A stretch of DNA of 54,207 nucleotides, taken from positions 1 to 54,207 of the forward strand of contig JAAYBR010000153.1 in assembly GCA_012730045.1 (NCBI GenBank), in the 5' to 3' direction. Made by a program: the position numbers and the translations under genes. Source of the stretch: Candidatus Hydrogenedentota bacterium (lineage in GTDB: Bacteria > Hydrogenedentota > Hydrogenedentia > Hydrogenedentales > CAITNO01). The notes below the pieces were generated by a model. It was not told the DNA's origin, made no database searches, and was given only the letters and a program-made list of their open reading frames with translations. Positions 2,413 through 22,878 of this stretch are shown piece after piece; position 1 is the first letter of the stretch; each line of letters starts with the position of its first letter.

Positions 2413-3654
2413 TTAGGAATCCAGCGCCTTCTGCACCGCGTCCGTCAGGACCTTCTCAAAATCCGGCGGCATGCCCGGAAAGACCTCGGAGACCATCCCC
2501 TTCCGGTCAACGACCACGATGAACGGGATGCCCTGCACCCCGTAGAGGTTGCCCACCTTTGCGTCCTTGTCCATCGGCACCGGCATGTCCATCTTTCTGG
2601 ACTCCAGGAACTTGGTGACCGTCTCCGGGGGCTCCGCCTGGTTGATGGCGTAGAGTTTCACCCCCTTGTCCGCGTGGGCGTGCACCACTTTTTCAATGAC
2701 CGGCATGGCCTGGCGGCAGGGGCCGCACCAGGTGGCCCAGAAGTCCAGCACCACGACCTTGCCCTTTTCGGCGGAAAGGGTCATCTCGCCGCCCTTGAGC
2801 AGCGGCAGGGTGAAGTCCGGCGCGGGGCTCCCCGTCTTCAGGGACGATTCCCGCCCGGTGCCGGGTTCGGGCTCCTTGCGGTCTTGAACCTTCACCCCCT
2901 CGGGGGCCGTGAAGACAAACTGCTCGTCCTTGAGTTCGGGATTAATGCGCCAGTTCGAAAACTGGAACACCACCTCGGCGGTGATCTTGCTTCCCCCGTG
3001 CGCCGAGGCGGAGACGCCCTTGGAAAGGTCCGCATTGAGCTGGACAAGCCGGCGCGTCTCCCCCGGCGCAAGCCAGGCGATGACATCAAAGCCCTCGTAG
3101 GCAAGCGCGATGCCGTCGCAGGCGAGGCCGCCGATCTCGCGCGTGCCGGCATGGGTCACGGACTGGGCGTCGTTCACCAGCGCCGCGTTCCCGTGGAGAT
3201 AATCAGCCAGCCACATGCCCGGCGCCTTGAGCAGGCCGCCCAGGGCGGCGCTAACCAGAACATCCCTGGGCACTTCCTGCTCCAGCCGGTCCGCGCGCTT
3301 CTCCGCAGGCAGGTACACATTGTGCACCTTCCCGTTGCTGATGATCCGCACCTCGCCGTTGCCCCCCTTCTGAGACAACCGCTGATACAGGTCGGTCGTG
3401 CCGCGAAGCAGCATTTCCCCCGAGAACTCCTCCTCATTCACCTCGTCTCCTCCGTCAGAAGCCTTTACCACCCGGGTGCTTGCGGAGAAATCCACCCCCA
3501 GGGAGGAAAACGCGGCGGTATCCCGCATGGCCTTTTCCAGCAGGGCCTTTGCGTTCTCATCCCCCTCCTGCGCCAACGCCGGCAACGCTGCGGCGCACGC
3601 CGTCGCAATCAACAACTTCACGAAACACACCATCCGTTTCTTCAGCAGGTCCAT
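2413..3654 (-). CDS. Secreted TlpA-like thioredoxin fused to DUF2092-like lipid-carrier-type domain
   Basis: A 413-residue periplasmic protein. Residues 1 to about 27 form a Sec signal peptide ending LPALAQ. The middle (about 30-250) resembles DUF2092/LolA-like periplasmic domains. The C-terminal 140 residues are a TlpA/ResA-type thioredoxin with the redox motif WCGPC in VVVLDFWATWCGPC and a cis-Pro segment GIPFIVVVD. Family members reduce periplasmic disulphides or support cytochrome maturation. ATG 3654 is chosen because AGGAGG lies 10 nt upstream and the signal peptide begins there; the longer upstream frame lacks such support. The two-domain fusion is recurrent in Planctomycetes-like genomes as far as I recall. 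Confidence 0.85.
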   Translation of the reverse strand: MDLLKKRMVCFVKLLIATACAAALPALAQEGDENAKALLEKAMRDTAAFSSLGVDFSASTRVVKASDGGDEVNEEEFSGEMLLRGTTDLYQRLSQKGGNGEVRIISNGKVHNVYLPAEKRADRLEQEVPRDVLVSAALGGLLKAPGMWLADYLHGNAALVNDAQSVTHAGTREIGGLACDGIALAYEGFDVIAWLAPGETRRLVQLNADLSKGVSASAHGGSKITAEVVFQFSNWRINPELKDEQFVFTAPEGVKVQDRKEPEPGTGRESSLKTGSPAPDFTLPLLKGGEMTLSAEKGKVVVLDFWATWCGPCRQAMPVIEKVVHAHADKGVKLYAINQAEPPETVTKFLESRKMDMPVPMDKDAKVGNLYGVQGIPFIVVVDRKGMVSEVFPGMPPDFEKVLTDAVQKALDS

Positions 3655-4013
3655 TCTGGAAAAGCCTCCTGTTGGCGCCGTCCCGCCCTTCTGTCCGCCT
3701 CTGAAACACTTAGTGCCAGCGGTCCATTTCAGGCAAACACCGTACGGCTTCGCATTCTTATACCATATCTTGCCTTGCCCGCACCGTCTTCTTTTCGGGG
3801 AGGTTTCCGGCACTTCTTCCCCCCGCTCTCCTCCCCTTCCCGCATTCTTCCCCCTGTTTTTCCCGGTTTGTCAAGAAATAACTTTCCCTTTTTGGGCCGA
3901 AAATGACCGTTTTTGTCGTTGAACACTGGCTTGGAACGTGCTAAAATGGAATTGACTTCAGGGTGGCATGGAGGGTTCGTGACCCTCATAACCGAGAGAG
4001 AAAAGGCTCCATC
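3655..4013. other. Divergent intergenic region upstream of the pilus operon
   Basis: About 359 bp between divergent genes. It contains the strong plus-strand promoter at 3919-3947 and, on the minus strand, only a weak TATAAG-like -10 (3757-3762). The middle is pyrimidine-rich and comparatively AT-rich. No ORF with coding character is seen. Confidence 0.6.
3919..3947 (+). promoter_or_regulatory. Sigma70-type promoter of the pilus operon
   Basis: TTGAAC (3919-3924), 17-bp spacer, TAAAAT (3942-3947), with TGC just before the -10. The leader to ATG 4014 is about 60 nt. One of the best promoter matches in the window. Confidence 0.72.
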
Positions 4014-6680
4014 ATGGCGATGATGCGTCCTGCATCCGGTCCGTCCAAGGGAAAAGGACAGAAGCGCCTGGGCTCTCTTCTCGTGGAGGAGGGCGTCGCC
4101 ACCCAGCAACAACTGGAAAGCGCCCTGGCCGTGCAGGAGGAGAAGGGCGGGTACTTGGGCGCCATCCTGGTGGAGCTCGGTCATCTGACCCAGGACCGCC
4201 TGACAGAGTTTCTTTCCAAACAGTGCCAGATTCCGCACGTCAGCCTGATTGGCTACGAGATCAACGAGCAGTTCACCAAGCTGGTGCCGGAGGAGATTTG
4301 TCTCCGCCTGAACGTGCTGCCGATAGACAAGCTGGCGCGCATCCTCACGGTGGCCATGGTGAACCCTCTGGACGCCGAGGCGCTGGAGGAGGTGCAGAAG
4401 CACTGCCCGGACCTGCGCATCAAGCCCATCCTCTGCTCTTGGGACCATTTCAGAATTGTCACGGAGCGGCTTTTTGGGAAGGCCCCCGTGCCGCGCTCCG
4501 CGGAATACTCCATTCTGACCCGCGAGCACTCCCCCGCCAAACCCAAAACACCCGAAGAGCGGGCGGCCAGGCAAAAGGCCAGGGACACCGCCCCGGGCAT
4601 GCTGGACGACGAGGATGAGGACATGCAGCCGGCCCCGTCCCGCCCGCCAACGCGCGGGCTGGGAGCCGGCCTGCAGACCATCTCCGCCGACAGTGCCCGG
4701 CAAATCGGGGCCGCCCTCAGCGAGGGCCTGCAGGAAAACCTGGCCGATCTTCTTCTGGCCATGCGCGAGAACCGGGCCGCGTCCCCCGCCGCCGACAACG
4801 GCGCGGCGGCCCTTGCCGAACTGACCACCGCCCTTCGGGACTCCATGGAAAGTTCCATCCAGTCGCTGGCGGGGGAACTCCGCACGAGCCTGGACGGGTT
4901 GAAGGAAAGCTGGCCCCAGGCCCCCGCCGGGGACGGGGATGACCGGCTGGCGGCCATGCTCCGGGAGCAGCTCGGCGCCGCGGTTGCAGAGGCCATGCAG
5001 CCCCTGACGGCGCAGCTGGCCGGGGTGGCCGCGGAGATTCGCAAAGGGACCGAACAGGAGCCGGCGGCCCCGCCGGATTTCGCGGCCCTGGCGCAGGGCA
5101 TCCAGGACGGCGTGGGCGCCGCGGTGGGCGGAGCCCTCACGTCGGTCAGCGCGGAGCTGCGCTCCCTGAACGAGCTCCAGCAGCGCGCCCCCGACGGCCC
5201 CTCCCCTTCGGAATGGGCCGACGCCGCAAGCCAGAGCGTGGGGGCGGTGGTCCGGGACGCCCTGGAGCAGCTGGGCGAAAGCCTCCGCAAGACGCTCGAG
5301 GGGCAGGCGGAAACAAGGACCCAGTCGGAGCAGGAATTCTCCCTGTTGGCGCAGGCCCTCCAGGAGGGCGTGGCCCACGCCGTGGAGGAGTCCATGGCCG
5401 GCATGACCGTCCAGCTGAAGTCCGCCCTCGCGCGCACCGAGTCCGCCGACGCGGAAAGCCGCAATGAGGCGGCCACCGCCCTGGCGGAACGGCTGGCGGA
5501 GGCGGTGAACCGGGGGCTGGCGGAGCTTCGGGACGCCCAAAAGGGGCAGGAGTCGGAGCTGGCCCGCGTCGCGGAGACGGCCCTGTCGGCCATCGCCGGG
5601 GAAAGCCGGAACGCCCTCACGGCGCAGCAGGAGGAGCTGGCCCGCATCGCGCAGACGACGCTTCAGTCCATCCGCGAGGCCCGGGAAAGCCAGGAGAGCC
5701 AGCAGTCGCAGCTGGCGAAGATCGCCGAGGCGGCCACGCAGTCCGTCAAGCAGACCACCGAGCTGATCGAGTCGCACCTGGTGGCGGAGAACAACCGCCG
5801 CGACCTCATGCGCCGGCGCAAGAACCGGCACGCCTCCGTGGCCCCGTTCGGCCTGGCGCCGGACGCGGACCCGGACGAGGCGACGCGGGTGGACGAGTCG
5901 GACGGCCGCATCATGGACGCGCTGGACTCGGAAATCCCCCTGGAGTCGCTCACCTTTGAAAACTATTTCCCGGGCAAGGTCAACGCCTTCACCTTCAAGG
6001 TGGCGCAGGCCGTGGCCGCCGGGCCCGGGGGCGAGTACAACCCCCTCTTCCTGTACGGGACCGTCGGGTGCGGCAAGACCCACCTCATCAGCGCCATCGG
6101 CAACACCATCCTGACGGGCGGCGGCAAGAAGGCCAAGACCCCCGCGCCGCGCGTGGGGTATGTCTCGGCGAGCCACTTCGCCCGCCGGATGGCGGAGGCG
6201 GTGGCGGAGGGCGCGCTGGACGCCTTCCGCGAGAACTACTGCCACTGGGACGTGCTCATCCTGGACGACATCCAGTTCCTCGGGGGCCGGGTGGAGGCGC
6301 AGGAGGAGTTTTTCCACATCTTCAACGCCCTCCACCAGCAGGGGCGCCAGATCATCATCGCGGCGGACAAGGCGCCCGACCGCCTCGGCCTGCTGGAGCA
6401 GCGCCTGGTTTCCCGCTTCGCCAGCGGCATCGTGGCGGAGCTCAAGCCGCCCGAGTGGGAAACCCGCATGCAGATACTCAAGCACCAGATGGCGGGGGCG
6501 GGGGTGCCGGTTCCCGAGGAAATCCTCTCCCTCATCGCGATGCGCGTGCCGGGCGACGTGCGCAAGATGATCGGCGCGCTGCGGAAAATCACGGCGTTTG
6601 CCAGGCTGATCGGAAAGGACATCAGCGTGGAGATGGCCCAGGAAATCCTGAGCCATCTCGGCGCAGAGGAGGCCGCATGA
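4014..6680 (+). CDS. MshEN-domain / helical-repeat / DnaA-type AAA+ ATPase fusion
   Basis: An 888-residue protein of three parts. Residues about 15-155 are an MshEN (GspE/PilB N-terminal) domain with two tandem 24-residue c-di-GMP motifs: RLG...L..G...L...L..Q, a 5-residue spacer, then YLG...L..G...L...L..Q. Residues about 200-620 are Ala/Glu/Gln-rich, made of repeated 30-40-residue helical units and probably coiled coil. From residue 646 a DnaA-like ATPase follows, opening LTFENYFPG, with Walker A GTVGCGKT, Walker B VLILDDIQFL, arginine-finger box RLVSRF and sensor-2 PGDVRKMIGAL. DnaA domain IV (DNA-binding helix-turn-helix) is absent, so it is unlikely to be a replication initiator. It heads the pilB-pilT-pilS-pilR run, so a pilus-motor regulator or assembly ATPase is inferred. 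ATG 4014 is preferred over the GTG at 3963; ATG 4020 is also possible. Confidence 0.85.
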   Translation: MAMMRPASGPSKGKGQKRLGSLLVEEGVATQQQLESALAVQEEKGGYLGAILVELGHLTQDRLTEFLSKQCQIPHVSLIGYEINEQFTKLVPEEICLRLNVLPIDKLARILTVAMVNPLDAEALEEVQKHCPDLRIKPILCSWDHFRIVTERLFGKAPVPRSAEYSILTREHSPAKPKTPEERAARQKARDTAPGMLDDEDEDMQPAPSRPPTRGLGAGLQTISADSARQIGAALSEGLQENLADLLLAMRENRAASPAADNGAAALAELTTALRDSMESSIQSLAGELRTSLDGLKESWPQAPAGDGDDRLAAMLREQLGAAVAEAMQPLTAQLAGVAAEIRKGTEQEPAAPPDFAALAQGIQDGVGAAVGGALTSVSAELRSLNELQQRAPDGPSPSEWADAASQSVGAVVRDALEQLGESLRKTLEGQAETRTQSEQEFSLLAQALQEGVAHAVEESMAGMTVQLKSALARTESADAESRNEAATALAERLAEAVNRGLAELRDAQKGQESELARVAETALSAIAGESRNALTAQQEELARIAQTTLQSIREARESQESQQSQLAKIAEAATQSVKQTTELIESHLVAENNRRDLMRRRKNRHASVAPFGLAPDADPDEATRVDESDGRIMDALDSEIPLESLTFENYFPGKVNAFTFKVAQAVAAGPGGEYNPLFLYGTVGCGKTHLISAIGNTILTGGGKKAKTPAPRVGYVSASHFARRMAEAVAEGALDAFRENYCHWDVLILDDIQFLGGRVEAQEEFFHIFNALHQQGRQIIIAADKAPDRLGLLEQRLVSRFASGIVAELKPPEWETRMQILKHQMAGAGVPVPEEILSLIAMRVPGDVRKMIGALRKITAFARLIGKDISVEMAQEILSHLGAEEAA

Positions 6681-6714: not shown

Positions 6715-8439
6715 ATGAAAGTGCAGAAGAAGAAACTCGAGGACATGCTGCTCTCCGAGCACCTTGTCACCAGCGACCAGATCCGGGAGTGCCTGCAGCT
6801 CCACCGCACCACCGGGCACAGCCTGCCCCAGCTCCTGGTGGAAAAGGGCTACCTCAGCGAGGAAAACCTCGTCGTCACCATCAGCGAGCACCTGGGCATC
6901 CCCCACATCCGCGTCGCCAACTACAACATCCCCAAGGAGGTGCTCAGCCAGGTGCCCGAGGCCCTGGCCCGGCAGTACATGATGCTGCCCGTGTCGCTCA
7001 CCGGGGAGGTGCTGACGCTGGCCATGGCCGACCCCCTCAACATCATGGCCGTGGACGACCTGCGGATGATCTCAAACTACGAGATCGAGCCGGTCGTGGC
7101 GATGATGTGCGAGCTGCGCGAGGCCATAGACCGCCACTACGGCGGCGGCAAGGCCGACAAGATATTCAAGACGCTGACGGCGGCCCAGGCGGAGCGGGAC
7201 GAGGAGCTTGACGGGGTCCAGGAGATCACGGAGGAGGTGGAGGACGTCTCCAACATGGAGGCGGGGGCGGACGACGAGCCGGTGCGCAACATGACGCGCT
7301 TCATCATGTTCAACGCCCTCGAGCGCGGCGCGAGCGACGTGCACCTCGAGCTGTTCGAGAAGCTGGTGCGCGTGCGCTACCGCGTGGACGGGTCGCTGGA
7401 GGAGGGCAAGGCCCCCCCGAGGACCATGCATCCAAACATCGTGGCCCGGCTCAAGATCCTCTCCGGATGCCGGATTGACGAGCGCCGCCTCCCGCAGGAC
7501 GGCCGGTGCCGCATGCGCTACAAGGGGCGCGACATTGACTTCCGCGTGGCGTTCCTCCCCTGCAAATACGGCGAGAAGGTGGTGCTGCGCGTCCTGGACC
7601 AGACCACCCTGACCCTGGACCTGGACAAGCTGGGCTTTGAGCCGCAGCCCACCGAGGCCTTCCACCACGCCCTCGGCATGCCCCACGGCATGATCCTGAT
7701 GACGGGCCCCACCGGCAGCGGCAAGACCACCACCCTCTACAGCGCCCTGCACAAGCTGAACACGGTGGACACCAACATCGTCACGGTTGAGGACCCCATC
7801 GAGTACGAGCTCTTCGGCGTGAACCAGGTGCAGGTCAAGCAGCAGATCGGCTTCACCTTCGCCGAGGCCCTGCGCCAGATCCTGCGCCAGGACCCCGACA
7901 TCGTCATGGTCGGCGAGATCCGCGACGGCGAAACGGCCGACGTGGCGGTGAAGGCCGCCCTCACGGGCCACCTGGTCCTGAGCACCCTGCACACCAACGA
8001 CGCGGCGGGCGTGTTCCCCCGCCTGGTTGACATGGGGGTGGAGCCCTTCCTCGTGCAGTCCTCCGTGGCGCTGGCCGCGGCGCAGCGGCTGCTGAAACGG
8101 GTCTGCCCCGAGTGCAAGGAGGCGATCACCGTGCCTGCGGACGCGCTCGAGCGCTTCCAGTACCAGCCTTTCGACTACATCCCCAACCCGCAGTTTGTGC
8201 GGGGGCGTGGCTGCCCAAAGTGCAAGGACACGGGGTACAAGGGCCGGGTCGCCGTGATCGAGGCCATGCTTAACTGGCCGGAGGTGCAGCCGCTGGTGCT
8301 CAAGCGCGCCTCGTCCCAGGACATCAAGCGGACGGCCATCCAGTGCGGGATGAGGACCCTGCGCCAGAACTCCCTTTCCAAGGCGGCCCAGGGCCTGACC
8401 ACGCTTGAACAGGTGCACGAGCACACCATTGCCGACTGA
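6715..8439 (+). CDS. pilB: Type IV pilus extension ATPase PilB
   Basis: A 574-residue GspE/PilB-family hexameric ATPase that powers pilin polymerisation at the cytoplasmic face of the inner membrane. It has an N-terminal MshEN-like domain (about 1-145), an N2 domain with ASDVHLE, Walker A GPTGSGKTTT, an Asp box around VEDPIEYEL, Walker B DPDIVMVGEIRD, a His box TGHLVLSTLHTNDAA, and a C-terminal tetracysteine zinc site CPEC...CPKC. The N-terminal c-di-GMP motif is eroded: KLE replaces RLG, and His replaces both Gly and Gln. It follows the DnaA-type fusion by 34 bp and precedes pilT. A type II secretion GspE is the alternative, but pilT next door favours PilB. Confidence 0.93.
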   Translation: MKVQKKKLEDMLLSEHLVTSDQIRECLQLHRTTGHSLPQLLVEKGYLSEENLVVTISEHLGIPHIRVANYNIPKEVLSQVPEALARQYMMLPVSLTGEVLTLAMADPLNIMAVDDLRMISNYEIEPVVAMMCELREAIDRHYGGGKADKIFKTLTAAQAERDEELDGVQEITEEVEDVSNMEAGADDEPVRNMTRFIMFNALERGASDVHLELFEKLVRVRYRVDGSLEEGKAPPRTMHPNIVARLKILSGCRIDERRLPQDGRCRMRYKGRDIDFRVAFLPCKYGEKVVLRVLDQTTLTLDLDKLGFEPQPTEAFHHALGMPHGMILMTGPTGSGKTTTLYSALHKLNTVDTNIVTVEDPIEYELFGVNQVQVKQQIGFTFAEALRQILRQDPDIVMVGEIRDGETADVAVKAALTGHLVLSTLHTNDAAGVFPRLVDMGVEPFLVQSSVALAAAQRLLKRVCPECKEAITVPADALERFQYQPFDYIPNPQFVRGRGCPKCKDTGYKGRVAVIEAMLNWPEVQPLVLKRASSQDIKRTAIQCGMRTLRQNSLSKAAQGLTTLEQVHEHTIAD

Positions 8440-8489: not shown

Positions 8490-9572
8490 ATGGCCGAAAG
8501 TCTGAGCATCAAAGAACTCCTAACCAAGATGATCCAGGAGGGGGCCAGCGACATGCACATCATCGTGGGCGGCCCGCCCATGATCCGGGTGCACGGGTCG
8601 GTGGAGCCGCTGCCGGGCTACCGCCGCCTGACGCCGGAACAGACCCAGGAGCTCGTCTACAGCGTGATGACGGAGCAGCAGGTGGCGGAGTTCGAGGCCA
8701 CCCGCGAGTGCGACATGTCCTTCGGCATTGACGGTCTGAGCCGGTTCCGCCTCAACGTCTACCGCGACCGCGGGTCCGTCGTGGCGGCGTTCCGCACGAT
8801 CCCCTTCGAGATCCTCTCCTTTGAGCAGCTGGGGCTTCCCCGGATCATCTCCGACTTCGCCCACAAGCCCATGGGCCTCGTGCTCGTGTGCGGCCCCACG
8901 GGAAGCGGAAAGTCCACCACCCTCGCGGCGATCCTGGACAAGATCAACCGCGAGCGCAAGACGCACATCATCACCATCGAGGACCCCATCGAGTACCTGC
9001 ACTCGCACAAGATGTCCATCATCAACCAGCGCGAGGTGGGCGCCGACACCAACGGTTTCTCGGAGGCCCTGCGCCGCATCCTGCGGCAGGACCCCGACGT
9101 GATCCTGATCGGCGAAATGCGCGACCCGGAGACGATCCAGGCGGCGCTGACGGTGGCCGAGACGGGCCACCTCGCCTTCGCCACGCTGCACACCAACGAC
9201 GCCCTCCAGACCATCAACCGCATCGTGGACGTGTTCCCCTCGGCGCAGCAGGCGCAGGTGCGCACCCAGCTCTCCTTCGTGCTCGAGGGCGTGGTCGTGC
9301 AGCAGCTCATCCCGCGGGCCGACGGCCTCGGCCGCGTCCTCTCCATGGAGATCATGATCCCCAACCCCGCCATCCGCTCGCTCATCCGCGCGGAGAAGCT
9401 GGAGCAGATACCCTCCATGATCGAGATCGGCAAGGGCGAGGGCATGATGACCATGAACCAGTCCCTCTACCGGCTCATGCGCCGCGGCATCATCACGCCG
9501 GACATGGCCTTCAAGCGCACCATGGACCCGGAGGGGCTCCAGAACCTCGTGGAAAAGGGGCTCCGGGATTGA
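8490..9572 (+). CDS. pilT: Type IV pilus retraction ATPase PilT
   Basis: A 360-residue PilT-family ATPase, the usual length, that drives pilus depolymerisation and twitching. Visible motifs are ASDMHI, Walker A GPTGSGKSTT, Asp box TIEDPIEYLH, Walker B DPDVILIGEMRD, His box TGHLAFATLHTNDA, and the C-terminal AIRSLIRAEK segment matching the PilT AIRNLIRE signature. GGAG in GGGAGCC precedes the ATG at 8490. It lies 50 bp after pilB in the same operon. No second PilT paralogue (PilU) and no PilC platform gene lie alongside. Confidence 0.94.
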   Translation: MAESLSIKELLTKMIQEGASDMHIIVGGPPMIRVHGSVEPLPGYRRLTPEQTQELVYSVMTEQQVAEFEATRECDMSFGIDGLSRFRLNVYRDRGSVVAAFRTIPFEILSFEQLGLPRIISDFAHKPMGLVLVCGPTGSGKSTTLAAILDKINRERKTHIITIEDPIEYLHSHKMSIINQREVGADTNGFSEALRRILRQDPDVILIGEMRDPETIQAALTVAETGHLAFATLHTNDALQTINRIVDVFPSAQQAQVRTQLSFVLEGVVVQQLIPRADGLGRVLSMEIMIPNPAIRSLIRAEKLEQIPSMIEIGKGEGMMTMNQSLYRLMRRGIITPDMAFKRTMDPEGLQNLVEKGLRD

Positions 9573-9612: not shown

Positions 9613-11292
9613 ATGAGCGCCCGCAGGCGCCGGAAGACGCCCGGGGGAAGCCCCGTCTGGCGCCGGGCGGGGGCGTTTCTCCGGCCCGTCTACGACGGGC
9701 CGCCCGCCTGGCTCTGGTTTGCCGGACTGGGCCGGACCGCCGCCATCCTCCTCATCGCCGGGGGGGCGCACGCCCTCGTGCGCGATGACCTCGCCTACAA
9801 CATTCTCATCGGCATCTATCTGGCCGCCGCCGTGTGCGGCCTCTCCTACCTGCACTCCCTGCGCGCCACGTCGCATGTGACCGCCGGCCTCACCTGGACA
9901 CAGATGCTCCTGGATTTCAGCGTGGTCGCCGCGACGGTGAGCTTCACAGGGGGCCAGGAAAGCGTCTTCGTCTTCCTGCTGCTGGTGGTGGTGCTTGAGG
10001 CGGGCGTGCTGCTGGGGCTGGCCCAGGGATTCCTCTTCGCCCTGGGCGCGGCGGTTCTCCTGCTGTGGATGTCGCTCGACAGCACCCTCTCCACAAAAGC
10101 CCCCGTCGAGCACTGGTACAGCGTTTCCCTCCAGTGGGTGGCGCTGTTCTGCGCGGCCTTCATCAGCGGCTACTGGAACCTCCGCCTCAGCCGGATGAAG
10201 CAGTTCCAGCGGGAAATCCTCGACAACATGAGCGGGGGCTTTCTCCTCGTGGACCGGAACGGGGTGGTGGCGGGGGCCAACCGCGCCGCCTGCGGCATCC
10301 TGGGCATTGACGAGGCGCGCCTGCGGGGGCGGCCCGTGGACCAGGCACTGGTCCCCGAGGACGGCTCGGAGTGCCCCGTGGTCACCGCGCTCCGCGAGGG
10401 CCGCGACTACCTCAGCTACGAGTGCCCCGTCACCACACGCCGGGGCGGGCTGCGCCTGCTCGGCCTCAGCACGAACCACCTCTACGACGCGCACGGGCGC
10501 CTGGAAACCCTGATCGTCTCGTTCACCGACCTGACGGAGATGGAACGCATCCGCAAGGAAATGCTGGTCCAGGCGCGCATGGCCTACATCGGGGAGATGG
10601 CCGCGGAGCTCGCCCACGAAATCCGCAACCCCGTGACCTCCATCCGCGGGGCCATGGAGGAGCTTGGGAAGGGCAACCTGCCCCCCCAGACCGCCGGGCG
10701 GCTCACGGCGATCACCCTGCGCGAGTCGGACCACCTGGAGAAGGTGGTCTCCGGCTTCCTCGACTTCGCGCGCAACCCCGAACTCCGGCGCTCCACGGTG
10801 TCGCTGGCCCGGCTCGCCGGGGAGATGCGCGAACTCTTCGAGAAAAAGCACCCCGGAGTCCGGGTGGAGGTCCGCACCGAGCCGGGGGGGGAGAGCGTCC
10901 ACGCGGACCCCACCCAGATGCGCCAGCTCTTCATCAACCTGTGCCAGAACGCCGCGGACGCCATGGGGGGCGAGGGACGGCTGGACATCGCCGTCCAGCC
11001 CAGGGAGACCACCGTCGAGGTCCGGTTTGAGGACTGCGGCCCCGGCATCCCCCCCGACAAAGTTGCACAGATATTCGAGCCGTTCTATACTGACAAGGAG
11101 CGCGGCGTGGGCATGGGCCTCGCGGTCTGCAGCAGGATCGCGGCGGTGCATGACGGCACGATACAGGCCGCGACACGGCCCGGGGGGGGCGCGGTCTTTG
11201 TCGTCCGGCTTCCCAGGGCTTTCCCCGCCGCGGCGGAAGGAGACGAACCCGGCCGGACGGCGGCGTCGGGCCCGGAGGAAACCCAAGGGTGA
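9613..11292 (+). CDS. pilS: PilS-like membrane sensor histidine kinase
   Basis: A 559-residue kinase. Residues about 30-195 contain five or six hydrophobic spans typical of PilS/NtrB-like sensors. A PAS domain follows (about 197-310; begins FQREILDNMSGGFLLVD). The HisKA H-box is LAHEIRNPVTSIRGA with the phospho-accepting His. The HATPase domain has an N-box (INLCQNAADAM), a G1 box (FEDCGPGIP), an F box (FEPFYTDK) and a G2 box (GVGMGLAVC). In the PilS/PilR pair such kinases monitor pilin levels and phosphorylate the sigma54 regulator. The stop overlaps the next gene's GTG (GTGA), which argues for a cognate pair. The symbol rests on context plus architecture. Confidence 0.87.
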   Translation: MSARRRRKTPGGSPVWRRAGAFLRPVYDGPPAWLWFAGLGRTAAILLIAGGAHALVRDDLAYNILIGIYLAAAVCGLSYLHSLRATSHVTAGLTWTQMLLDFSVVAATVSFTGGQESVFVFLLLVVVLEAGVLLGLAQGFLFALGAAVLLLWMSLDSTLSTKAPVEHWYSVSLQWVALFCAAFISGYWNLRLSRMKQFQREILDNMSGGFLLVDRNGVVAGANRAACGILGIDEARLRGRPVDQALVPEDGSECPVVTALREGRDYLSYECPVTTRRGGLRLLGLSTNHLYDAHGRLETLIVSFTDLTEMERIRKEMLVQARMAYIGEMAAELAHEIRNPVTSIRGAMEELGKGNLPPQTAGRLTAITLRESDHLEKVVSGFLDFARNPELRRSTVSLARLAGEMRELFEKKHPGVRVEVRTEPGGESVHADPTQMRQLFINLCQNAADAMGGEGRLDIAVQPRETTVEVRFEDCGPGIPPDKVAQIFEPFYTDKERGVGMGLAVCSRIAAVHDGTIQAATRPGGGAVFVVRLPRAFPAAAEGDEPGRTAASGPEETQG

Positions 11293-12680
11293 CGGCAAGG
11301 CACCGTGTGCTCGTCGTGGACGACGAGCTGAGCATGCGCGAGCTTCTCGAGATCGTTCTCGAAAGCGCGGGCTACGAGGTGCACTGCGCCTCCGGCGACG
11401 ATGAGGCCCGCGCGGCCATGGACGGCGCGCAGTTTGACGCGGCCATGACGGACCTCCACATGGGCGGCGACCGCAACGCGGGCCTGCGCCTGCTGTCGTG
11501 GATGCGCGAGGCCGACCCGCGGATGCCCGTGGTGGTCATCACGGCCCACGGCTCGGTGGAGACCGCCGTCGAGGCCATGCGCCTGGGCGCCGCCGACTAT
11601 GTCCAGAAGCCCTTCCGCTCCAACGACGAGATCCGTTTGCGCGTGGCGCGCGTGGTCTCCGAGCGCAATCTCCGCCGCGAAAACGAGGCCCTCCGAAAGG
11701 ACCAGGCCCACCGGAGCAATCCGGGGAACATGGTCGGCAAGAGCCCCGCCTTCCTCGAGGTCCTCTCCATGGTGCGGCGCGTGGCCGGGCTGCCGAGCAC
11801 CGTGGCCGTCTACGGGGAGAGCGGCGCGGGCAAGGAACTTGTCGCCCGCGCGCTCCACCACCTCAGCCTCCGGGCCGAAAAGCCCTTCGTCGCCATCAAC
11901 TGCGGCGGCATCCCGGAAACCCTCCTGGAAAGCGAGCTGTTCGGCTACAAAAAGGGCGCCTTCACCGGCGCCGGCGAGGACAAGGAGGGGCTCTTTGTCG
12001 TCGCCAACGGCGGCACCCTCCTGCTGGACGAGATCGGCGAGATGCCGATGAAGCTCCAGGTGAAGCTGCTGCGGGTGCTGGACAACAACTCCGTCACCCC
12101 GGTCGGCGGCACGGCCTCCATCAACGTCAACGTCCGCATCGTCTCCGCCACCAACCGCAACCTGGAGGAGATGGTGGAGCAGGGGGACTTCCGCAAGGAC
12201 CTCTTCTACCGCCTGAACGTGATCCCCATCCATGTCCCCCCCCTGCGGGACCGGGGCGAGGACATCCCGCTGCTCACGCGGCACTTTGTCCAGAAGCACG
12301 CGGTGAACATGGGCTGCGGGGTAAAGGAGCTTTCGCCGGAGACCGAGGCGCTCCTGGCGCGGTACTCCTGGCCCGGAAACATCCGGGAGCTGGCGAACGT
12401 GGTCGAGCGCGCGCTGGCCCTCAGCGGCGAGAGGATCGAGCCGAGGGACCTCCCCCCCGCCATCCGGGAGTATGTGCCCCCGCCCGAAACGCCCCTGGCC
12501 GACCTGCCCGGCGGCGGTGTCAATCTGGAGGCCATCATCTCGGACATGGAGCGCAAATACATCGAGCAGGCGCTGGAGCGCTCGCGGTTCTCCCAGATCC
12601 GGGCGGCGGCGCTGCTCGGCCTCACGCCGCGCTCCCTGCGCTACCGCCTGCAAAAATACGGCCTGTCCGCCCAGGACTGA
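11289..12680 (+). CDS. pilR: PilR-like sigma54-dependent response regulator
   Basis: A 463-residue NtrC-family activator. The receiver domain (about 1-125) has the acidic pair in VDDE, a phospho-acceptor Asp in MTDLHM and Lys in VQKPF. The sigma54 interaction AAA+ domain (about 150-380) has Walker A GESGAGKE, the sigma54 loop GAFTGA and Walker B GTLLLDEIGEMP. A Fis-type helix-turn-helix ends the protein (QIRAAALLGLTPRSLRYRL). It would activate RNA polymerase-sigma54 at distant pilin promoters, none of which lies in this window. The GTG start at 11289 overlaps the kinase stop by 4 bp. A generic AtoC-like role is the alternative to PilR. Confidence 0.9.
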   Translation: MTARHRVLVVDDELSMRELLEIVLESAGYEVHCASGDDEARAAMDGAQFDAAMTDLHMGGDRNAGLRLLSWMREADPRMPVVVITAHGSVETAVEAMRLGAADYVQKPFRSNDEIRLRVARVVSERNLRRENEALRKDQAHRSNPGNMVGKSPAFLEVLSMVRRVAGLPSTVAVYGESGAGKELVARALHHLSLRAEKPFVAINCGGIPETLLESELFGYKKGAFTGAGEDKEGLFVVANGGTLLLDEIGEMPMKLQVKLLRVLDNNSVTPVGGTASINVNVRIVSATNRNLEEMVEQGDFRKDLFYRLNVIPIHVPPLRDRGEDIPLLTRHFVQKHAVNMGCGVKELSPETEALLARYSWPGNIRELANVVERALALSGERIEPRDLPPAIREYVPPPETPLADLPGGGVNLEAIISDMERKYIEQALERSRFSQIRAAALLGLTPRSLRYRLQKYGLSAQD

Positions 12681-19373: not shown

Positions 19374-20465
19374 TCACTCGTCGGTGTACTCGGTGATGGC
19401 GGCCTCGTCGAACACGGCGAGCATGATCGTGGTGCGGCCGTTGGTGGTGTAGACGAGGTAGATTTTCCCGTCCTTTCCCTGCACGGCGTAGGGGTACGCG
19501 AAGTCGTTGTTGCCCCCGGCGATGTCGCGCTTGTGGGGCCAGGTCTCGCCGCCGTCCTTGCTGACGGCGACGGTGAGCGGCGTGCGGTCGTTCATGTTGT
19601 TGTTGTAGACCAGCAGGAGGTCGCCGTTGGTGAGCTTGATGAGCTCGACCGCCGCGTTGCAGTTGGGGAACTCCGTGTTGACGCCCTCGGACCAGGTCTT
19701 GCCGCCGTCGAAGGAGTCGCTGCGGATCATCCACCCGTCGGTTGTGGGCTCGTAGCCGCCGCTGCGGCGGGTGAAGCAGAAGAGGTGGTCGTCCGTGAGC
19801 TGGACGACCTGGGCCTGCTCGTTGCCCTTGGCCGAGTGGATGCGGCTGCTCTCGGTCCAGGTCTTGGTGGACGGGGTGTAGCGCAGGAAGAAGCAGGTGG
19901 TCTCGGGGGACGTGAACTCGCGGTCGCCGCCCATCTCCTTGTACAGCGGCAGGAGGTAGTCGCCGTTGTTCAGCACGATGGGCTGTCCGCGGACCATGGT
20001 GCCCTCCTCCCACGTCAGCATGAAGGAGTCGGACCAGGTCTCCGCGCCGTCCCTCGACACCTTCGCCTTCACCCGCGACGTGCACCACGTCTCCCCGAGG
20101 CGGTTCACATAGAAGAGCCACACCAGCCCGTCGGGCGCCTGCCAGACCACGGGGTTACCGTCTCCCTGGAACGGCGTGTCCGCGATGACCACGGGGTGGG
20201 ACCAGCCCTCCTCCCCGGCCTTCCGACGGGCGCCGTAGACCGCCGTGTTGTCGTCATACTCGTTCTCGCCGCCGTAGTAGGCGATGTAGAGGTCCCCGTT
20301 GGCGAGTTGGGTGATCGAGGCGGGGTGCTTGTACGGGCCGGGATGCTCCTGCCCGAAGACGCGGTGGGTCTCCACATTGGTCTTGAACATGGGGAGAACC
20401 AGCCCCTCGGTGGACGCGGCGTCGGCACCGCACGCCAGCATCGTCACGGCAAGCAGAAACGACAT
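19374..20465 (-). CDS. Secreted BNR-repeat sialidase-like hydrolase
   Basis: A 363-residue protein with a signal peptide (about 1-20). It has a six-bladed beta-propeller pattern with Asp boxes: VSRDGAETWSD, DSFDGGKTWSE and VSKDGGETWPH. Such proteins are exo-sialidases (GH33-like) or related glycan-binding propellers. The catalytic arginine triad cannot be fixed by eye, so enzymatic activity is inferred. AGGAGG lies 7 nt before ATG 20465. It is divergent from the GT2 gene and stands alone on its strand. Confidence 0.82.
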   Translation of the reverse strand: MSFLLAVTMLACGADAASTEGLVLPMFKTNVETHRVFGQEHPGPYKHPASITQLANGDLYIAYYGGENEYDDNTAVYGARRKAGEEGWSHPVVIADTPFQGDGNPVVWQAPDGLVWLFYVNRLGETWCTSRVKAKVSRDGAETWSDSFMLTWEEGTMVRGQPIVLNNGDYLLPLYKEMGGDREFTSPETTCFFLRYTPSTKTWTESSRIHSAKGNEQAQVVQLTDDHLFCFTRRSGGYEPTTDGWMIRSDSFDGGKTWSEGVNTEFPNCNAAVELIKLTNGDLLLVYNNNMNDRTPLTVAVSKDGGETWPHKRDIAGGNNDFAYPYAVQGKDGKIYLVYTTNGRTTIMLAVFDEAAITEYTDE

Positions 20466-20509
20466 GGGAAACCCTCCTGTGCGCGGCGGCCCGTCCCGGC
20501 CGCCGGTCT

Positions 20510-20539
20510 TTGCGCTTTCGACAAGGCTTACTCTACCAT
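20510..20539 (+). promoter_or_regulatory. Putative promoter of the GT2 gene
   Basis: TTGCGC (20510-20515), 18-bp spacer, TACCAT (20534-20539), 25 nt ahead of ATG 20565. Same TTGCGC-18-TACnnT layout as at 33530 and, on the minus strand, 26951. Confidence 0.5.
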
Positions 20540-20564
20540 AGGGGCGCAAACCAAGGGAGTCCGC

Positions 20565-22811
20565 ATGTCCGGAACACACCACGAGACGCCGCGCGGCGAC
20601 GGCGGTTTCCGCGCCGACTATCTGCGCCTGTGCGACTGGACGGCGCAGGTCGGCCTCGCATTGGAGGAGATGGACGGGCTGTGGTGGTGGCGGGCGGGCC
20701 TGCGGCGGCGGGCCGCGCTGGAGGCGCTGGGGCTGCTGCCAAAGCCGCCGCTGCCCGCGGAGGCGGCGGCCGCCCTGCGCGCGCGCGCGGAGGAGGAGCA
20801 GCGCCGGGTGCTGGAGACGCTGGACGGCGGCGGGCTTTCGGGCGCGGAGGCGGTGGACGCGGTGAACGCGCAGTGCCGCGTCCTGGCGGGAATCTACGGC
20901 GAGCTGACGCGCATGGCGCGGAGCCCGTGGTGGCGGCTGGGCATTGCGGCGCGCCGCGCGGCGGGGGCGCTGGGCGTGAAGAAGCGCGCTTTCCGCATGC
21001 CAACGGAGGAGGCGGCGGAGGTCATGGGCCTGTTCCGCGCGTGGCTGGCGTGGTCGGACTTTGGGGCGTGGTATCCGGACCGCCTGCCCGCGGTGAACCG
21101 GACCGAGACCGCCGCCCCGCCGGACGCCTCGCTTTTCGGCGGCAGGATGGCGGAACTGCTCCGGGACGGGGGGTATCCCCTGCTTCCCCATGTCTGGCGG
21201 GCCAGCGAGGCCCATGCCGCCGCCCTCCGGCGGCAGCATTCCCCGGCCGGACCCGCCCCGCTGGTCTCGGTCATCATGGCCGCTTGGAACCGCGAGGCGG
21301 TCATCGGCGACGCCGTGCGCAGCGTGCTGGAGCAGACCTGGACGCAGTGGGAGCTGCTCGTGTGCGACGACGGCAGCGTGGACGGCACGGCGGCGCGCGC
21401 GGTGGCGGCGGGCGATCCCCGGGTGCGCGTGCTGCGGCTCCCGCACGGGGGCGCGGCGCGGGCGCGCAACGCGGGCCTCGCGGAGGCGCGGGGCGAACAC
21501 ATCGCGTATCTGGACACGGACAACCTGTGGCACCCGGCCTATCTGGAGACTATGCTCGCCGCCGTGGCGGGCCGGGGGCCGGTATGCGCCTTCGCGCGGA
21601 GCGTGGAGGCCGTCGCCGGCACGGACGGCCGTTTCCGGGTGCGCTCGGCGCGGGGGATAGACCACGACTATGAGCGGCTCCTGGTGCGGAACCACCTGGA
21701 TCTGAACACGTTCATGCACCACCGGGCGCTGTATGAGCGGCTGGGCGGGTTCACGGACTCCCTGCCCAGGGGGCAGGACTGGGACCTCGCCCTGCGCTAC
21801 ACGCACAGCGTGGAGCCGGTGGCGGTGGACGCGCTGCTCGCCCTCTACCGGCGGCATCCCGGCTGGGGGCAGCTCACGGACACCCAGCGCCACCGCGCGG
21901 GCTTCGTCGAGCGGATCGTCCGGGGCAATGTCACGCTGCTGGGCCGCGACGGCCTGCCGTCCCTGTCGCGGATCACGCCGCGCCCGCGGGTGCTCGTGCT
22001 GGGGGCCGATGCGGACGCCCCGCGCGCGCGCGCCCTCGCCGACATCCTCACGAGCCACGACATCGCCAAAGCGGAGGCCGTGGAGACGGCGGAGGCCATC
22101 ACGAAACATCTGGCCGGGGCCGACGCCCTGTATGTTGTCGGAGACGCGGCGCGGCTGCTCGTGGGACTCCCCTTCCCGCAGGGCTTTCCCGTGTTTCTCG
22201 AGGACGCGCCCGAACCGGCGGCCCTTCCCGGCGCGGTGGTGCGGCAAACCACCTCCCGCGTGCTGCCCGGTCTGGAGGGCGCGGGGTTCCCCGTGGGAGG
22301 GGGATGCCCCGACGCGCCTTCCTTTCCCCCGGCGGGCGGTGCCGCGCTGGAAGGATTCCGCGTTCTGCCGGTCGGCGGCACGGCCGACAATGCCGGACAT
22401 TTCTTCAAGCGCCTCGACATGCGGGCGGCCGTGCCCGCCCCTCCACAATCCGGCGGCACGCCTTTTTCCGGCGTGGACGCCGTGGTGGTCGGGTTCTGCG
22501 GGGACGGCGCCCCGGGTCCCGGCCGGACGCATGACGCGGCGGTGCGCGCCTTTGCCTCGGGGGTGTCGGTGGTCGCCGCCCACGGGTGCGGCCTGGACGC
22601 GCTCCTCCGGCGGGGCTGCGCGCACGGCGTGCGCGCGGGGGATTTCGACGCGCTGCGGGCGGTGCTGGAGAAACTGGCGGGCGACCACCGCCTGGATACG
22701 GTGACCGTCGCTGCCCGCCGCCTGTATGAGCGCACGGCCTCGCCCCGCGCGGCGGCGGTGCAGGTGTCGCTGCTGCTCACCGAGGCCCCGCCCCCCGCGC
22801 GCACGGACTGA
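20565..22811 (+). CDS. Large protein with central GT2 glycosyltransferase domain
   Basis: A 748-residue protein. An N-terminal helical Ala/Arg-rich region (about 1-230) has no recognised family. A GT-A fold glycosyltransferase family 2 domain follows (about 234-450): PLVSVIMAAWNRE, LVCDDGSVDGT, and a DTDN in place of the usual DxD. The C-terminal 290 residues begin RVLVLGADADAP and look Rossmann-like, possibly a second glycosyltransferase-type or nucleotide-binding domain. AAGGGAG lies 6 nt before ATG 20565; the much longer open frame upstream runs antisense through the sialidase and is rejected. Sugar donor and acceptor are unknown. Confidence 0.82.
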   Translation: MSGTHHETPRGDGGFRADYLRLCDWTAQVGLALEEMDGLWWWRAGLRRRAALEALGLLPKPPLPAEAAAALRARAEEEQRRVLETLDGGGLSGAEAVDAVNAQCRVLAGIYGELTRMARSPWWRLGIAARRAAGALGVKKRAFRMPTEEAAEVMGLFRAWLAWSDFGAWYPDRLPAVNRTETAAPPDASLFGGRMAELLRDGGYPLLPHVWRASEAHAAALRRQHSPAGPAPLVSVIMAAWNREAVIGDAVRSVLEQTWTQWELLVCDDGSVDGTAARAVAAGDPRVRVLRLPHGGAARARNAGLAEARGEHIAYLDTDNLWHPAYLETMLAAVAGRGPVCAFARSVEAVAGTDGRFRVRSARGIDHDYERLLVRNHLDLNTFMHHRALYERLGGFTDSLPRGQDWDLALRYTHSVEPVAVDALLALYRRHPGWGQLTDTQRHRAGFVERIVRGNVTLLGRDGLPSLSRITPRPRVLVLGADADAPRARALADILTSHDIAKAEAVETAEAITKHLAGADALYVVGDAARLLVGLPFPQGFPVFLEDAPEPAALPGAVVRQTTSRVLPGLEGAGFPVGGGCPDAPSFPPAGGAALEGFRVLPVGGTADNAGHFFKRLDMRAAVPAPPQSGGTPFSGVDAVVVGFCGDGAPGPGRTHDAAVRAFASGVSVVAAHGCGLDALLRRGCAHGVRAGDFDALRAVLEKLAGDHRLDTVTVAARRLYERTASPRAAAVQVSLLLTEAPPPARTD

Positions 22812-22831
22812 CACGGACGGGCACGGACCTG
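22802..22831. repeat. Three-copy CACGGACnnn tandem repeat
   Basis: Three adjacent 10-bp units, CACGGACTGA, CACGGACGGG and CACGGACCTG. The first unit contains the GT2 stop codon. Confidence 0.7.
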
Positions 22832-22878
22832 TCGGCGCCCGCGCAACCACACACAACCTCCCAGGCCCGGCGGACTGG

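Follow-up and report, generated by a model that had tools for sequence, protein, structure and literature searches.

DnaA-type ATPases act in the initiation of replication and in its control, and DnaC, IstB and the phage loaders are their cousins. To our knowledge all of these proteins are linked to DNA, and we know of no sensor domain fused to Hda. Single-stranded DNA is bound by domain III of DnaA (PMC5835720); in E. coli DnaA the residues V211 and R245 touch the single strand (PMC5835720; PMC12122000), and binding to unwound origin DNA is abolished by the V211A substitution (PMC12122000).

The c-di-GMP motifs of MshEN domains follow the consensus (R/K/L)LGxx(L/V/I)(L/V/I)xxG..., in which the glycine at the third position touches guanine through its backbone amide (PMC11731258). 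The partners of MshEN named in the main text of PMC5013675 are REC, HD-GYP, CheA, CheX, cyclase and Ser/Thr kinase domains, with no DnaA among those named there. The PilB proteins of Xanthomonas and Pseudomonas are without c-di-GMP motifs and FimX serves both, binding c-di-GMP as well as the motif-less PilB (PMC8389850; PMC11656802).

Architecture of the fusion protein

Within the window (the whole stretch of 54,207 nucleotides of Candidatus Hydrogenedentota DNA that was analysed) a single ORF with an ATG start encodes an 888-residue protein that combines the two kinds of domain. Its parts, with window positions, are as follows:

4014..6680, + strand: 888-aa fusion of MshEN, helical repeats and a DnaA-type ATPase (ORF, Pfam, NCBIfam, orthologues)
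4065..4223, + strand: two 24-residue c-di-GMP motifs with a 5-residue spacer, residues 18-70 (NF053729, consensus count)
4227..4481, + strand: MshEN C-terminal subdomain, residues 72-156 (Pfam; pLDDT about 90)
4686..5432, + strand: about six repeated helices of ~40 residues, residues 225-473 (model helices, repeat score against shuffles)
5451..5831, + strand: long helix with three ~25-aa tandem repeats, residues 480-606 (model and repeats)
5826..5852, + strand: RHASVAPFG motif ahead of the ATPase, residues 605-613 (alignment)
5949..6680, + strand: DnaA domain-III ATPase with lid and no domain IV, residues 646-888 (Pfam Bac_DnaA, fold match)

The MshEN domain as a whole covers residues 18-156. 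Its motif block (residues 18-70) reads RLGSLLVEEGVATQQQLESALAVQ-EEKGG-YLGAILVELGHLTQDRLTEFLSKQ and is matched by the NCBIfam model for the MshE-type c-di-GMP motif domain, NF053729, at 58 bits against a cut-off of 38; the two motifs agree with the consensus at 10/11 and 9/11 positions. Pfam MshEN follows at residues 72-156 (53 bits, cut-off 23.1), and comparison with the structure of V. cholerae MshE (5htl) gave 70 bits.

In a full-length AlphaFold2 model the MshEN and ATPase domains are confident (~90 pLDDT), while the middle is helical and of low confidence. The model helices span residues 225-256, 263-298, 308-346, 356-389, 398-429, 436-473 and 480-606, and the first six resemble one another more than shuffled sequences do (mean pairwise score 32.3 against 20.3 +/- 1.1). 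An earlier note on this DNA had described a repeated helical region of ~400 residues; the repeats stand above shuffles but the length holds for this species only, as relatives have middles of anywhere between 177 and 689 aa. The RHASVAPFG motif between the helical rod and the ATPase is kept through most of the family. We know of no match to it, and it might be a docking motif.

Conservation and gene order

The fusion was found in most of 40 relatives, each time as one ORF, so that the gene described in the earlier note, with MshEN, helical and DnaA-like parts together, is real and conserved, and in no relative were the parts found as separate genes. The C-terminal 301 residues were matched at E<=1e-60 in 51 of 68 sampled genomes of this little-studied phylum, all 68 of which belong to one order. 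Three further fusions are more divergent (L199, L201, L202), and the fusion is present in at least 54 of the 68 genomes, always as a single ORF. A family profile separates members (>=323 bits) from true DnaA (<=293 bits); at E<=1e-92 it found the fusion in 0 of 952 genomes of the phyla Verrucomicrobia, Omnitrophica, Nitrospirae and Zixibacteria, a search that is blind to convergent fusions with another DnaA copy. In a profile search of genome contigs with the family alignment, ordinary DnaA dominates among the matches listed and the result is uninformative on distribution; its named matches served as the DnaA reference set.

Two departures from the pattern were seen. The gene ahead of pilB in genome G027 (L200:7703-8640, - strand) encodes the MshEN and helical parts with no ATPase or remnant of one. 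In the genus of G006 and G011 the fusion is missing and pilB-pilT-pilS-pilR is preceded by an oxidoreductase-like gene. The PilB of this genus retains the same degenerate MshEN although the fusion is gone, and the fusion partner is therefore not strictly required. In some of the remaining fusion-negative genomes pilB lies at a contig end, and these give no evidence of absence.

The genes that follow the fusion in the window are:

6715..8439, + strand: pilB (MshEN and T2SSE) with degenerate c-di-GMP motifs (Pfam, NCBIfam, motif count)
8490..9572, + strand: pilT (TIGR01420, 477 bits against a cut-off of 319)
9613..11292, + strand: PAS-HisKA-HATPase sensor kinase with a weak PilS-like membrane domain match (Pfam)
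11289..12680, + strand: NtrC/PilR-type sigma-54 response regulator (Pfam, NCBIfam)

This is the position, directly before pilB, pilT, pilS-like and pilR-like genes, that had been read from the window at the outset, and it extends well beyond it: pilB lies directly downstream on the same strand in 34/34 testable loci, L200 with its missing ATPase included. The order fusion-pilB-pilT-pilS-pilR is retained in many families of the phylum, and in most of the families pilB is succeeded by pilT, the PAS kinase and the NtrC-type regulator; families f7 and f10 have different genes downstream of pilB. Since the operon encodes an NtrC-type regulator a sigma-54 promoter was looked for upstream, and nothing above chance was found. 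Upstream of the operon lies a divergent DUF2092-thioredoxin/redoxin gene (window 2413-3813, - strand), which also occurs in several family members. Elsewhere in the window (19377-22856, - strand) an ORF of 1160 aa, mostly without a Pfam match, ends in a BNR (sialidase-like) repeat domain. No structured RNA was found within the window and PADLOC gave no match to a defence system. A phage origin was considered and rejected, since PHROG gave only weak matches of DnaC-like type and the viral folds that matched were distant.

The c-di-GMP motifs of the fusion and of PilB

The motifs of 29 fusions and 30 adjacent PilB proteins were scored against the published consensus (PMC11731258). The position-3 glycine is present in 28/29 fusions in motif I and in 28/29 in motif II, against 4/30 and 0/30 respectively in PilB. 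In motif I of PilB its usual replacements are proline and glutamate, and in motif II they are proline, glutamine and alanine. The PilB proteins of families f4 and f5 often retain the glycine of motif I. This pattern suggests that sensing of c-di-GMP has probably been transferred from PilB to the fusion protein. Binding by the fusion's own MshEN is likely but less than certain in every member, since in nearly all of them the first residue of motif II is F, Y or L rather than R/K, and motif I is without G10 in 16/29. It was also considered that PilB regains its motif in genomes without the fusion, and this was rejected because the PilB MshEN is equally degenerate there.

The genome itself has five matches to GGDEF cyclases, four of them above the cut-off. 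It also encodes an MshEN domain joined to a cyclic-nucleotide-binding (cNMP) domain (L067:7876-9213, - strand, contig C101), whose MshEN part is 43% identical to that of the window protein, and another joined to HDOD (L068:9286-10950, + strand, contig C47). MshEN therefore serves as a general input domain in this genome. ORFs of ~460 aa with MshEN, similar to the cNMP fusion, occur in many relatives.

Relationship of the ATPase to DnaA

The C-terminus had been called DnaA-like and without domain IV, and both descriptions held. Pfam Bac_DnaA matches residues 646-808 at 175 bits (cut-off 23). The NCBIfam DnaA model TIGR00362 aligns over profile positions 40-340 of 437 only, from which it follows that domain IV is absent; the AAA+ domain with its lid spans residues 646-885, and the protein stops after the lid, where domain IV would start. 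An AlphaFold2 model of the ATPase domain (mean pLDDT 84) has as its closest solved structure domain III of T. maritima DnaA, with a TM score of 0.93 (target-normalised), an rmsd of 1.8 A and 38% identity. By sequence and fold together the relatives are DnaA first, then Hda and the DnaC/DnaI-type loaders.

The protein is nevertheless not a standard DnaA. It falls short of the NCBIfam equivalog cut-off for DnaA (278 against 343.9 bits), and a standard DnaA (242 bits) is encoded on another contig of the same genome, so that the fusion is not its sole initiator. In a tree with 51 DnaA sequences, 12 of them from genomes of the same phylum, all 32 fusion ATPases form one clade (SH-aLRT support 100) apart from the sampled DnaA and on a long branch. 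One of these 12 (L217:923-2278, + strand, genome G017) clusters with Betaproteobacteria and is probably a contaminant of that assembly. The genome of the window also encodes a weak DnaA-type ATPase (L065:1573-2724, - strand, contig C80; 53 bits to Bac_DnaA) with a coiled-coil-like C-terminal part and no domain IV.

The core motifs of the ATPase, with their conservation among 32 members and the equivalent residues of E. coli DnaA, are:

6057..6080, + strand: Walker A GTVGCGKT; K688 (E. coli K178) in 32/32
6255..6269, + strand: Walker B LILDD; D751 and D752 (D235 and D236) in 32/32
6402..6416, + strand: box VII RLVSR; R797 (R281) in 27/32 and R801 (R285, the Arg finger) in 32/32
6555..6575, + strand: sensor 2 DVRKMIG; R850 (R334) invariant in 32/32

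Because all of these core residues except R797 are invariant, ATP binding, hydrolysis and the Arg-finger contact are likely to be retained. The same invariance of K688, D751, D752, R801 and R850 bears on a reading in which the ATPase is only an ATP-dependent module for self-assembly or polar placement that collects the pilus motors, hydrolysis being of minor importance. A scaffold of this kind would fit the long helical rod of such variable length (177-689 aa), the complete lack of the ATPase in G027 and the replacement of R797 by Q, C or G in 5/32 members that keep Walker A and B, but the invariance of these five residues counts against it. It is considered doubtful, although it ranks first among the alternatives, ahead of a regulator of replication and then of a role in DNA uptake.

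A regulator of replication would be a c-di-GMP-controlled analogue of Hda, pairing with ATP-DnaA, altering its ATP state and so coupling the start of the cell cycle to the state of the pilus or the surface. Retention of the Arg finger, sensor 2 and the DnaA-like fold, the absence of domain IV as in Hda and the place of Hda as the nearest solved relative after DnaA are all consistent with this. The fusion is, however, nearer to DnaA than to Hda and membership of Hda was rejected, since it scores 98 bits against an equivalog cut-off of 194.8. Around sensor 2, moreover, positions that vary little or not at all in DnaA have changed throughout the family (N332 to D, E335 to K or R, E337 to T, I, M or V), which suggests a different partner surface, and the gene always lies within a pilus operon. 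A function in replication is accordingly judged improbable.

The residues that contact single-stranded DNA bear on the third alternative, in which the ATPase would bind incoming single strands during competence with c-di-GMP setting the timing. Of the 89 DnaA having a residue at the V211 position, 87 have I or V; among the fusions 16/32 have A there and 0/32 have I or V. At the R245 position 28/32 fusions carry E or D; this counts for less than V211 because R245 varies among true DnaA too, the DnaA of the same phylum having mostly A there. With both contact positions altered, the arginine position to an acidic residue, the fusion ATPase probably does not bind DNA. Uptake would draw on the known binding of single strands by domain III (PMC5835720) and on the retraction motor of the operon's pilus. 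The fusion is without a DNA-binding domain, however, and no competence gene was found by Pfam among the operon genes examined, all of which makes this the least probable of the three.

A possible mechanism

We infer for the fusion a motor-associated role, that of a trans-acting c-di-GMP receptor with a DnaA-type ATPase as its output for the type IV pilus motors of the operon, and on the architecture, its conservation, the gene order and the residue patterns we put the probability of this at about 0.5. Control of pili is more probable than control of replication because the gene sits right before the pilus motor genes; adjacency of the fusion and pilB genes does not itself establish contact of their proteins. 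The MshEN domain would bind c-di-GMP, the helical rod would bridge it to the ATPase, and the ATP-bound ATPase domains may self-assemble via the Arg finger in the manner of DnaA domain III. The states of c-di-GMP and ATP would then jointly decide whether the fusion binds to PilB, positions it or activates it, and perhaps PilT likewise, with the pilus base as the putative site of control. The fusion would in this way take the role of FimX for a PilB lacking the c-di-GMP motif.

Somewhat more tentatively, a AAA+ ATPase of the DnaA clade may have left DNA metabolism, become gated by c-di-GMP via MshEN and come to assemble on and switch pilus motors, sensing having moved from PilB to its partner. 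If true, this would mean that the DnaA ATPase clade can serve a secretion-type machine, and the fusion would define a new class of pilus-motor regulator. It offers a possible route, amenable to test, for c-di-GMP control of a PilB whose own motif is lost.

Comparison with known systems

Each half of the fusion is of a known kind; their pairing, its conservation across the phylum and its pilus setting were not found in the libraries or literature searched, which also contained no described protein of MshEN-DnaA architecture, as the earlier note had supposed. That note went on to compare the ATPase with GspA/ExeA. The likeness goes only as far as an ATPase encoded beside secretion or pilus genes; kinship was rejected, as no AAA_22 match was found by Pfam at E<=0.01 and the lineage is that of DnaA, with Hda and the DnaC/DnaI-type loaders as further relatives. 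By analogy of function FimX is the better parallel. The two share the logic of a separate c-di-GMP-binding protein (binding being predicted here) for a motif-less PilB, but the fusion has an ATPase, which FimX does not, and none of the REC, PAS, GGDEF and EAL domains of FimX was found in it by Pfam.

With DnaA domain III the fusion shares the fold and the retained Walker A and B, Arg finger and sensor 2. It differs in having no domain IV, in carrying MshEN at the N-terminus where DnaA has domain I, in its changed ssDNA-contact residues and sensor-2 neighbours, and in forming a separate clade. Hda is likewise a DnaA-type AAA+ protein without domain IV, but the fusion lies below the Hda cut-off and its model reaches a TM score to target of about 0.7 for Hda against 0.93 for DnaA. 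With the MshEN receptors MshE, PilF, PilB and NfrB it has in common the pair of 24-residue motifs as well as the C-terminal subdomain of MshEN; it differs from them in that MshEN is joined to a DnaA-type ATPase and not to T2SSE or a glycosyltransferase, and Pfam gave no match in it to T2SSE, the motor ATPase domain of PilB and GspE. By its input the protein is thus an MshEN-fusion receptor, and by its output an ATPase that is derived from DnaA but is not DnaA.
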